IMG/VR virus record: IMGVR_UViG_3300044825_002350
Coordinates: 1 to 40,214 of that record
Length of the DNA: 40,214 nt
Source: a virus
Direction: 5' to 3' (one strand)
This document shows positions 36,967 through 40,214 of the stretch, in pieces. Below the pieces are notes generated by a model. It was not told the origin of the DNA, ran no database searches, and saw only the letters and a program-made list of their open reading frames with translations. Every line of letters starts with the position of its first letter. The first letter of the stretch is position 1. Made by a program: the position numbers and the translations under genes.

Positions 36967-37620
36967 GTGGCATATCTCAACCACAACCTACCAACCTTCA
37001 CTTGCTATATACGCAACGAGTTTTTATACAACCACAAACAGGGTCATGGCGAGGTGACGCCTTGCGACGTCCACTCCGTTGCATCCCTGGAGAAACGCGT
37101 CCCTTTGTTTGAGGTGTTTCTAGAGAATGGCGTTAATTGGACCCGTCGCCCGATCCATGCGTTGTGCTGGAAACCAGATGCGCTAGTCCCTGCGTTGAAC
37201 GAGTGCATGTGGTGGGATTGCTTCTCTCCCTACATTGATGTACAGGTGCGCTCACGTCTTGCCAACTTACGTGCAGAGCTAATTAACTATTGCGGAGAAA
37301 AAAATCAAGGCGTCTACATGTTCACTTTGGATTGGTCTTGGGAATCCAAAGCAACTCTTAATACCAACTTTAGTGAAACACCCGAGCATAAGTGTGCGCA
37401 TTTTTTTCGTATGGACAATGGAAATTTCTACGCGTACCCCAATAACAAAATCATTTGGTACGATGACGCCTGGCTACGCAACCGGATTGATAAAAACCCT
37501 GGATACGAGATTGACTTGAATGAGTACAGTGTTGAGAATTCACGAATGATTGAGACATCAGATCATTTTATGTATGACACAGCACGTTACAAAGACATTC
37601 TGTGTGTGTATAATAATTGA
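36967..37620 (+). CDS. Conserved hypothetical protein with GTG start
   Basis: 217 aa. Begins AYLNHNLPTFTCYIRNEFLY then KQGHGEVTPCDVHSVASL, with conserved-looking aromatic and His residues (WKPDALVPALNECMWWDCFS, HKCAHFFRMDNGNFYAYPNN). The N-terminal phrase LPTFTC-x-IRNEFLY is one I associate with a family of phage hypotheticals. The GTG has no clear ribosome site and lies directly after the terminator T-run, so translation requires terminator read-through or RNA control. No catalytic motif is identified. Confidence 0.65.
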   Translation: MAYLNHNLPTFTCYIRNEFLYNHKQGHGEVTPCDVHSVASLEKRVPLFEVFLENGVNWTRRPIHALCWKPDALVPALNECMWWDCFSPYIDVQVRSRLANLRAELINYCGEKNQGVYMFTLDWSWESKATLNTNFSETPEHKCAHFFRMDNGNFYAYPNNKIIWYDDAWLRNRIDKNPGYEIDLNEYSVENSRMIETSDHFMYDTARYKDILCVYNN

Positions 37621-37639
37621 GTTCCCCCTCTCTTTTCGA

Positions 37640-38100
37640 TGGGGCTCAGTTGGCCGCTGATGCGCCGGGGACCGATTCGGCAAGCGCGAAGGCCTGAGGT
37701 GACTCGTTAGGCAGATAGCCTAGAAGGAGAGCCAAGATAGAGGTGCAGTCACTGTCTGGATACGCCTGGTTAACTCACAGCCCGATTGTCGGTACGCCAG
37801 TCACACTGCATCCATCTATCAGCAACACCCCCTATGCTTAGCTCCGGGACGCTGGATGATGCACAAACCAGGGGGTCACTAATTAAGGGTGTAACAAGGA
37901 ACGTTGCATTAAACGAAGGATCCCCTCGGCCGCATCGTAGATTCACCGTTAAGTTTGTGGTAACACAGCCCTAGCGATGGTCGGTGAACGTAGGCGGACA
38001 TCCTTGCCCTTATTACAAAGGGGTTTTGCATGGTGCATGCTGAACTTAAATAACTGACGCCTCCCGCTGCAGAAAGCGTACCCATTAGGTCAGTGCCCTA
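37640..38100 (+). ncRNA. Large structured RNA candidate (GOLLD/ROOL-like or new class)
   Basis: About 460 bases without a credible ORF. A four-way junction: GGCTC/GAGCC (37643-47/37729-33) encloses a GGCC-GCGC hairpin (37652-37694), GAG-GTGA-CTC (37696-37705) and TAGGC/GCCTA (37708-37722). Then TGCAGT/ACTGCA (37744-49/37805-10); ACCCCCT/AGGGGGT (37827-33/37870-76); TGTAAC/GTTGCA (37890-95/37903-08); AAGGAT/ATCCTT (37916-21/38000-05) with nested CCGC/GCGG and TTCACCG/CGGTGAA (37942-48/37982-88); TGTG-GTAA-CACA (37956-37967); ACTGAC/GTCAGT (38053-58/38089-94). Two possible pseudoknots cross these. GNRA loops and U-G pairs indicate the plus strand. It lies beside tRNA-Pro. Confidence 0.7.
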
Positions 38101-38103
38101 CTC

Positions 38104-38175
38104 CGAGATGTAGCGCAGCGGTAGCGCTTCTGTTTTGGGAACAGAAGGTCACAGGTTCGATCCCTGTCATCTCGA
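38104..38175 (+). tRNA. tRNA-Pro (anticodon TGG)
   Basis: Complete cloverleaf: acceptor CGAGATG/CATCTCG; T8 A9; D-stem GCGC/GCGC; anticodon stem TCTGT/ACAGA with loop TTTGGGA, so anticodon TGG with G37, normal for Pro; T-arm ACAGG-TTCGATC-CCTGT. The discriminator is A73. No encoded CCA. The tRNA probably supports translation of proline codons rare in the host or survives host tRNA loss during infection. Confidence 0.93.
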
Positions 38176-38176
38176 T

Positions 38177-38252
38177 CACCTGGTCCGAGCTAATTGGATA
38201 AGACGGTTACTGCCGCTGCAGAACGATGTAGGTTCGACTCCTACCCAGGTGC
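38177..38252 (+). tRNA. tRNA-like element with degenerate anticodon arm
   Basis: Acceptor CACCTGG/CCAGGTG is perfect, T8 is present, the D-loop has ATTGGATA, and the T-arm GTAGG-TTCGACT-CCTAC is normal. But no 5-bp/7-nt anticodon arm forms; instead a bulged GTT-A-CTGC/GCAG-AAC stem with a 4-nt CGCT loop is seen, and the D-stem is only CCG/CGG. It lies one base after tRNA-Pro. It may be a decayed tRNA, a non-decoding tRNA-like RNA, or a tRNA needing unusual folding. Confidence 0.4.
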
Positions 38253-38326: not shown

Positions 38327-38584
38327 GTGACCTGGGGCACTGCTAAAAAACGTATCGATAAGAATCGACAGAAGCTTCTGGAGTACAAGAAGACTTTGCA
38401 GTGCAAGAAGTGTGGACTGAATGATCATCGTGTCCTTGAGTTCCACCACATTGGAGACAAGGATAACAACATCTCCAGCATGGTAAACCATGGTTATGCC
38501 TGGAGCAGGGTAGAGGAAGAGATCAGTAAATGTATTCCGTTATGTTGTAACTGCCACAGGCTTGAGCACTGGTCAACAAATTAA
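38327..38584 (+). CDS. Small HNH endonuclease (GTG start)
   Basis: 85 aa. LQCKKCGLNDHRVLEFHHIG (CxxC zinc and the catalytic HH) and KCIPLCCNCHRLEHW (second CxxC, NCHR). This compact HNH matches a group common in cyanophages; the spacing between the Cys pairs is normal. It follows the tRNA region and its stop overlaps the convergent metallopeptidase gene by 4 bp. Confidence 0.85.
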   Translation: MTWGTAKKRIDKNRQKLLEYKKTLQCKKCGLNDHRVLEFHHIGDKDNNISSMVNHGYAWSRVEEEISKCIPLCCNCHRLEHWSTN

Positions 38585-39528: not shown

Positions 39529-40068
39529 TTATTCACTGGGAAAATTAAGACAAACGAATGTGGAGTTAAACGCGTTAGCTTTTTCATCATAAGCTATAGC
39601 TGCTTCAAGTTCCGTTTTAAATGTACCTAGTCGATAGCATTTACCTTTGTACTGAATTTTAGCAGTCCATTTATTTGTACGCTTTTCAAAAGCAACTCCT
39701 TTATATTTACTTGTACTGTTTGTTCTTTTTGGTTTATTTCTATTTAGTTTGTTCGTTTGATGAGTTGCAAGTCTTAAATTTTCAATGTTGTTATTTGATT
39801 TATTCTGATCAATGTGATCAATTAACTTTTCTGCAGGGTCTTTTAAGCAAGATAAAAACCATACAATTCTGTGTGTTAAATACATTTTAGGAGTCGGAAA
39901 ATTAATTCCTACCAGCCAATAACCTTTTTTATTTTTATAACCAGCGATATCACCCGTTTTTAGTTTTTTAGATCTGGGATTTTTCCAGCGCAAACCACTG
40001 GGAGAATCCGGATCAACTGTAAAAAGATGTTTTAGTAATTCAAGGTCGGGAAGCTTTTTTGCTATCAT
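39529..40068 (-). CDS. HNH-AP2 homing endonuclease with leader RNA
   Basis: 179 aa from the ATG 40068. A NUMOD4-like start (ELLKHLFTVDPDSPSGLRWK), GDIAGYKNKKGYWLVGINFP, HRIVWFLSCLKDPAEK with IDHIDQNKSNNNIENLRLAT (HNH), then an AP2-type domain SKYKGVAFEKRTNKWTAKIQ to ELEAAIAYDEKANAF. It is a relative of the gene at 35945. It is A/T-rich and flanked by the duplicated 24-residue gene ends. It is preceded by leader copy A. Confidence 0.88.
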   Translation of the reverse strand: MIAKKLPDLELLKHLFTVDPDSPSGLRWKNPRSKKLKTGDIAGYKNKKGYWLVGINFPTPKMYLTHRIVWFLSCLKDPAEKLIDHIDQNKSNNNIENLRLATHQTNKLNRNKPKRTNSTSKYKGVAFEKRTNKWTAKIQYKGKCYRLGTFKTELEAAIAYDEKANAFNSTFVCLNFPSE

Positions 40069-40136
40069 TTGAAAGTGACCAGGAACATTGGTTGCCACGG
40101 AGCAGGAGGCTGCAACCTCGCTGCTCTTACATTTTA
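40069..40136 (-). ncRNA. Conserved HNH leader RNA element, copy A
   Basis: Minus strand from TAAAAT (40136-40131): P1 GAGCAG-C-GAGG, loop TTGCAG, CCTC-CTGCTC (40100-40126) with the same bulged C as copy B; then GGCA; P2 ACCA-N7-TGGT (40078-40092); then CAC, seven bases and the ATG at 40068. P1 differs from copy B by paired substitutions (GAGG/CCTC against GGTG/CACC). Confidence 0.65.
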
Positions 40137-40139
40137 TAC

Positions 40140-40214
40140 CTATCCGTTTCTGAGTGTGGCCTTTACGAACCAAGCGGATTTAAATGCTTGTCCGCATAAA
40201 TCACTAAGATAGTT
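40140..40214 (-). CDS. C-terminal end of a gene cut by the window edge
   Basis: 24 codons and a stop, reading NYLSDLCGQAFKSAWFVKAT then LRNG. Open to the right edge. It is nearly the same as the end encoded at 39441-39512, separated by the HNH gene. The rest of the protein is outside the window, so its function is unknown; it is the functional copy only if the gene was not disrupted. Confidence 0.7.
   Translation of the reverse strand, partial: NYLSDLCGQAFKSAWFVKATLRNG

Follow-up and report, generated by a model that had tools for sequence, protein, structure and literature searches.

GOLLD and ROOL are phage RNAs that are often found near tRNA genes. In phage T4, two small stable RNAs are annotated, rnaC (species 1) and rnaD (species 2), which lie 6 bases apart, rnaD being 1 base from tRNA-Arg. 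In cyanophages, manA and wcaG were described (PMC2864571), and abiF, manA, wcaG and glnA were listed in Synechococcus phage S-CREM1 by its authors, by Rfam only (PMC9964418). The AbiF protein is bound and neutralised by abiF RNA, which acts as its antitoxin (PMC12373285). Phage PhiTE uses pseudo-ToxI, a phage RNA mimicking an RNA antitoxin, against ToxIN (PMC3475682), and phage tRNAs counter Septu, a tRNA-cleaving defence (PMC13096335).

The locus described here belongs to a linear virus record (IMG/VR IMGVR_UViG_3300044825_002350), which was analysed over its whole length of 40,214 bases (the window) and whose host is probably cyanobacterial. A structured non-coding RNA region (37621-38098, plus strand) occupies the gap from an ORF that ends at 37620 (PHROG family annotation 'ferredoxin') to tRNA-Pro. 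An earlier note had read this stretch as one large RNA. The feature is real and of interest, but it had been misread: small phage RNA genes, very probably about seven to judge from comparison with homologues, form a modular array in the order M1-M2-M3-M4-abiF-B-M7-tRNA-Pro (Table 1).

Table 1. Positions of the promoter, RNA modules and tRNA elements of the array in the window.
Feature	Position	Strand	Description	Remarks
Promoter	37586-37614	+	sigma-70-like, GTTACA-17-TATAAT	10 of 12 matches; predicted transcript start at about 37620, directly 5' of M1
M1	37621-37645	+	5'-end hairpin GUUCCCCCUCUCUUUUCGAUGGGGC	directly after the promoter; 11 distinct sequences
M2	37649-37695	+	hairpin, core TGCGCCGGGGACC..GGCAAGCGC (37661-37687)	30 IMG/VR contigs
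M3	37697-37735	+	two-part hairpin, ANAUA loop, core CGTTAGGCAGATAGCCTAGAAGG (37705-37727)	
M4	37736-37816	+	hairpin, core GATAGAG.....GUCNCUG / CACA....UCCAUC with exchangeable apical hairpin	
abiF-like RNA	37828-37876	+	enlarged loop	Rfam RF03085, sub-threshold (23.0 bits; gathering score 37)
B	37887-38009	+	three-way-junction RNA GGGU..AACAAGGAACGUUG..UUAAACGAA..GCCC	variable insert of about 43 bases
M7	38020-38098	+	hairpin GCAUGGUGCAUGC and CUGAC..GUCAG stem, closed by GGG/CCC	
tRNA-Pro(TGG)	38104-38175	+		5 bases 3' of M7
tRNA-like element	38177-38251	+	conserved; short anticodon arm CTGC-CGCT-GCAG, without a 7-base anticodon loop	

Coding content, Rfam matches and folding energy

The longest ORFs in the gap were of 62 and 58 amino acids and neither was credible, so that a protein-coding reading was rejected, in agreement with the earlier note. 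At Rfam gathering scores, tRNA alone was matched. At E values up to 10, the abiF RNA match given in Table 1 was added, together with chance matches (HIV-1_SL3 and permuted tmRNA, E 3.5 and 3.9, respectively). GOLLD and ROOL were matched at neither level, which speaks against the suggestion that the stretch is a short form of these RNAs. The folding energy of the whole stretch was ordinary (z -0.24 and -1.04 for the two strands) and that of M2, B and M7 folded singly gave z near 0. Folding energy was therefore dropped as evidence, and structure had to be tested by comparing homologues.

The tRNA-like element next to tRNA-Pro, for which ARAGORN made no call in the window, has related elements at 17 other loci; most of these share its layout, and the normal acceptor and T arms are kept. 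Another tRNA-like family, with an anticodon arm ending in a GACAA pentaloop, was seen within tRNA arrays (L017, L064, L115, L219, L250 and others). Matches to tmRNA lie near tRNA arrays in viral contigs (L210:6326-6591 and L084:10251-10391, a cyanobacterial-type match and a permuted-tmRNA match). HNH endonuclease genes adjoin the array in the window (38327-38584 and 39529-40173; phrog_2255; HNH_3 with AP2) and could help to spread its modules.

Conserved folds of the modules

Homologue loci were retrieved with exact sequence patterns in IMG/VR and about 300 loci were compared; since exact patterns were used, invariance inside a search pattern is partly ascertainment, and the covarying columns lie mostly at pattern positions left unspecified or outside the patterns. 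In the covariation check on homologues, which had been set beforehand, compensatory changes were strong in M3, M4, the abiF-like RNA, B and M7, as expected of the plus-strand structured RNA that had been claimed. Paired cells and covariation, compared with shuffled alignments (values in brackets), which ignore the kinship of the sequences, were 94.0% (68.4 +- 1.4) and 0.630 (0.167 +- 0.019) for M3 (40 sequences), 99.2% (89.8 +- 0.6) and 0.293 (0.102 +- 0.010) for M4 (43 sequences), 96.9% (87.5 +- 1.6) and 0.294 (0.124 +- 0.021) for the abiF-like RNA (18 sequences), 99.8% (93.0 +- 0.4) and 0.300 (0.159 +- 0.009) for B (39 sequences), and 98.1% (90.3 +- 1.1) and 0.265 (0.108 +- 0.019) for M7 (11 sequences), respectively. 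In B, 9 of the 22 pairs were changed on both sides, and pairing fell to 31-46% when the partners were slid, a control that retains kinship. M1 and M2 had few base changes, and their support consists of conservation and a few exchanges: C-G to G-C in the stem of M1, and G-C/U-A in the outer stem of M2, the core of which was nearly invariant in 20 aligned copies.

The pairings that had been proposed to cross between helices were not borne out. The first (TGCATC 37807-37812 with GATGCA 37858-37863) would tie the M4 3' strand to the abiF-like RNA; in homologues the same M4 strand pairs, with covariation, with M4's own 5' strand (37742-37747), M4 and the abiF-like RNA are also found apart, and the complementarity is absent in M4 copies adjoining abiF (L072, L177). 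For the second (CATCG 37933-37937 with CGATG 37975-37979), the bases belong to helices 4 and 5 of B, where columns 47, 50 and 51 of the B alignment (A1) pair with columns 108, 104 and 103, respectively, 47/108 covarying, and the partner strand lies within the insert that most B copies do without. A GTGA tetraloop (37699-37702) would need CTC 37703-37705, which is paired with GAG 37727-37729 in the conserved M3 helix. The hairpin with a GUAA loop (37957-37966) is present, in the variable insert of B.

No Rfam family was matched by B, M3, M4 or M7, and a keyword literature search found no published description of them (an earlier one is possible). The idea of a new class thus holds in that these four are outside Rfam, and fails in that they are independent short RNAs and not a single class. 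The pattern scans of IMG/VR gave 40 contigs for B, 9 for M7, at least 119 for M3, at least 120 for M4 and 34 for the abiF-like RNA. The modules are restricted to phages: the M4 pattern had no match in 84,980 GTDB (bacterial and archaeal) genomes, and the M3 pattern had three matches there, one of them a true copy. This copy (L314:3069-3093) is on a contig of the Saprospiraceae MAG UBA7328, which is probably misbinned phage DNA, since the sequence on either side of the copy is matched by viral contigs, L080 among them. The module-carrying isolates are Synechococcus phages (S-CREM1, S-SZBM1, S-SRM01, S-RIM8, S-RIM32, DSL-LC02, DSL-LC03 and S-EIVl).

The modules occur almost always once per genome. 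Covariance models, to which several of the matched records had themselves supplied sequences, found B (R1, E 1.1e-19) once per record in 6 of 6 matching records, M4 (R2, E 2.6e-17) once in 17 of 17, and M3 once except in DSL-LC02, which has two copies. abiF was likewise present once in all 12 matching records.

M3 was also seen inside the apical loop of M4 in some loci. In two others (L176:3285-3353 and L184:12500-12568), the M3 hairpin forms the anticodon arm of a tRNA-like body, which ARAGORN calls tRNA-Ile(GAT); the likeness of the ANAUA loop to isoleucine anticodons may be a coincidence. One more module with an M3-like layout (TACCACTTGCGCTGGAAAGATAAACCAGAATGCCGTGGTAA and variants) lies 5' of M4 in L134, L210, L222, L240 and L272.

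The window's abiF-like copy has the RF03085 fold, with stems of 6 and 3 pairs and the conserved flanking bases; it aligns with canonical abiF copies, and its inner stem has a U-A/A-U exchange. Canonical copies in sister arrays scored 50-56 bits, and enlarged-loop relatives 24-30 bits, below the 37-bit gathering score. The enlarged-loop form recurs: of 35 distinct sequences, 19 have 55-105 bases versus the usual 43-44.

Arrangement of the modules among tRNAs and transcript starts

When phage records were searched by blastn, two separate parts of the stretch had matches in S-CREM1, one adjoining a degenerate tRNA and the other being the annotated abiF, with tRNA-Leu, manA and tRNA-Asn between them; S-CREM1 also carries B and M4, both unannotated. 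Among the loci compared, modules occur singly, in changing orders and next to a wide range of tRNAs, for example Met-His-B-Leu-Asn-abiF-Gly in S-CREM1, Arg-M4-abiF-Leu in L285 and Pro-M3-M4-abiF-Ala in S-SZBM1, and neighbours stand in both orders (abiF before B in 13 cases and after it in 4; M3 before abiF in 10 and after it in 4). The borders of the modules are set by these separate occurrences. One integrated RNA of a short GOLLD/ROOL-like or new large class, folding as a unit across 460 bases, would account for the order M1-M2-M3-M4-(abiF)-B being kept in close relatives, which means that the module set was inherited together in the window's phage lineage. However, such an RNA is very improbable given the single modules, the other orders and combinations, the inter-module pairings that are not conserved, the missing GOLLD/ROOL match and the ordinary z of -0.24.

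The association with tRNAs that had been pointed out was confirmed and extended. In all 236 module clusters containing tRNAs, these are on the modules' strand. For copies with a tRNA within 60 bases downstream, to which the counts were limited, the gap to the next tRNA was 0-7 bases in 58 of 61 M4, 27 of 28 B and 31 of 32 abiF copies, never exceeding 6 bases in those 58 M4 copies, and the median gap was 5 bases for B, abiF and M7. The end of M4 is 1 base from tRNA-Ala in S-CREM1 and 2 bases in S-RIM8, and M4 abuts tRNA-Thr in S-RIM32.

An in-register sigma-70-like promoter was present upstream of 16 of 24 M1 copies (0.3 expected) and 48 of 128 M4 copies (1.4 expected), and upstream of none of the B, abiF and M3 copies; M1 and M4 thus look like transcript starts and the others like internal beads. 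A hairpin-plus-T terminator stands just upstream in three relatives (L020, L087, L131). Between tRNA-Arg and M4, shortly before the latter, a TTGACA-17-TACTAT promoter was seen in L066, L085, L209, L211 and others, with its spacer part of a hairpin, which could be an operator.

Cis-regulatory leaders or riboswitches controlling the next gene or the tRNA operon would agree with the position of M1 and M4, often at a predicted transcript start, with those copies of B, M3 and M4 that lie just 5' of an ORF start (some copies within 60 bases), and with the presence in the same arrays of manA and wcaG, which were first classed as such. This reading is nevertheless unlikely, given that what follows a module differs greatly from copy to copy (numerous tRNAs, further modules or ORFs of no common kind) and is not of any one gene class, that no promoter signal precedes B, abiF or M3, and that B and M4 are often between two tRNAs. 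It is about equally improbable that the modules are parts for maturation and stability of the tRNA precursor, M1 or M4 shielding its 5' end and the rest being folded spacers for guiding RNase P or RNase E, with no later role. M1 and M4 at transcript starts, and M4 0-2 bases 5' of tRNAs, would suit such parts; the single-stranded cores, nearly invariant (alignments A1, A2 and A3), are conserved more than a spacer should need, many tRNAs of the same arrays have no such spacers, and several different families share one array.

Proposed roles and comparison with known systems

The preferred reading, towards which the balance tips slightly when it is taken as a whole, is that about seven separate small RNA genes are kept in phage tRNA arrays, processed like the tRNAs and trans-acting. 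One transcript would start at about 37620 and run through M1-M2-M3-M4-abiF-like-B-M7 into tRNA-Pro. Judging from the arrangement of the arrays, the modules are probably released by tRNA processing, much as for T4 rnaC and rnaD: the tRNA-maturing enzymes, with RNase P cutting at the 5' end of the tRNA, would together with other nucleases free them as stable small RNAs. Less surely, these might be trans-acting within the infected cell.

The abiF-like module would there bind and silence a host AbiF-type HEPN toxin, as pseudo-ToxI does for ToxIN. The Abi_2 protein, the sole toxin model used, was found in 0 of 52 records, most of them abiF-bearing and many of them fragments, so that the phage abiF copies look like orphans; with the PhiTE precedent, this makes an antitoxin mimic the simplest role for the canonical copies. 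For the module in the window, an orphan RNA-antitoxin mimic is given an even chance. Type III antitoxins are usually repeats, and the single copy of the abiF-like RNA in the window counts against a mimic. With its enlarged loop and sub-threshold score, it may have lost AbiF binding; the enlarged-loop form may be suited to another AbiF or to a new target. In mycobacteriophage Baka (L320), an orphan abiF RNA (95523-95558, 39.7 bits) lies about 270 bases 5' of tRNA-Gly; no Abi_2 protein was found there, and similar blastn matches occur in 43 mycobacteriophage records.

The other modules would act on further host defences that bind RNA, as decoys or inhibitors. That they are mainly anti-defence is put forward tentatively: for B, M3, M4 and M7 it is drawn solely from the company of abiF, tRNAs and non-decoding tRNA-like elements. 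It is rather unlikely that the RNAs are instead tRNA-mimic decoys for anticodon nucleases or other tRNA-targeting defences and not antitoxin mimics; tRNA-like elements without a normal anticodon loop in the arrays, the M3 hairpin in place of an anticodon arm in L176 and L184, and the action of phage tRNAs against Septu point that way, but B, M4, M7 and abiF are not tRNA-shaped. Returning to trans-acting RNAs of several kinds, an anti-defence function of the array would have a plausible mechanism. It is conceivable, although somewhat doubtful, that tRNA arrays are RNA counter-defence islands made of exchangeable cassettes of many unrelated small RNAs, every one of which mimics, or serves as a decoy against, a different RNA-binding host defence. 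If so, the abiF-like RNA would be the first recognisable member, and B, M3, M4 and M7 would hint at toxins or nucleases that are still to be discovered.

Structured RNA families outside Rfam, at least four in number (B, M3, M4 and M7), are widespread in phages, with unannotated copies in isolates. The modules are a second content of phage tRNA arrays and offer a concrete lead on why phages keep these arrays. Isolates with known hosts make the reading testable, namely S-SZBM1 and S-CREM1 on Synechococcus CB0101, and Baka, with its orphan abiF, on M. smegmatis.

Compared with known systems, GOLLD and ROOL are much longer single RNAs, whereas the stretch in the window splits into independent modules. 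manA (RF01745) and wcaG (RF01761) are likewise structured cyanophage RNAs in tRNA arrays, beside B and abiF in S-CREM1, and differ in sequence and fold, with no Rfam match in the window. With abiF RNA (RF03085) the window copy shares the 37-nt fold CCCNNNA-NGC...GC-NCAAA-NNGGG, in which the pairing and most of the flanking bases are conserved, and differs in its enlarged loop, its 23 bits (below 37), its single occurrence and a record that has no AbiF gene. In the T4 tRNA cluster, the B, M3 and M4 models (R1-R3) had no match and abiF was not found by Rfam, so that homology to rnaC and rnaD was rejected. The T4 RNAs are alike in being non-coding RNA genes set against tRNAs in the same orientation, with spacings of 1 to 6 bases in T4. 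Two such RNAs are present in T4, whereas the window has about seven and a tRNA-like element; the array revives the old question of the role of the T4 stable RNAs C and D. Pseudo-ToxI of PhiTE (PMC3475682) is the likeness for a phage RNA that mimics an RNA antitoxin, and consists of repeats of one ToxI-like RNA, whereas the tRNA array of the window combines RNAs that differ from one another.
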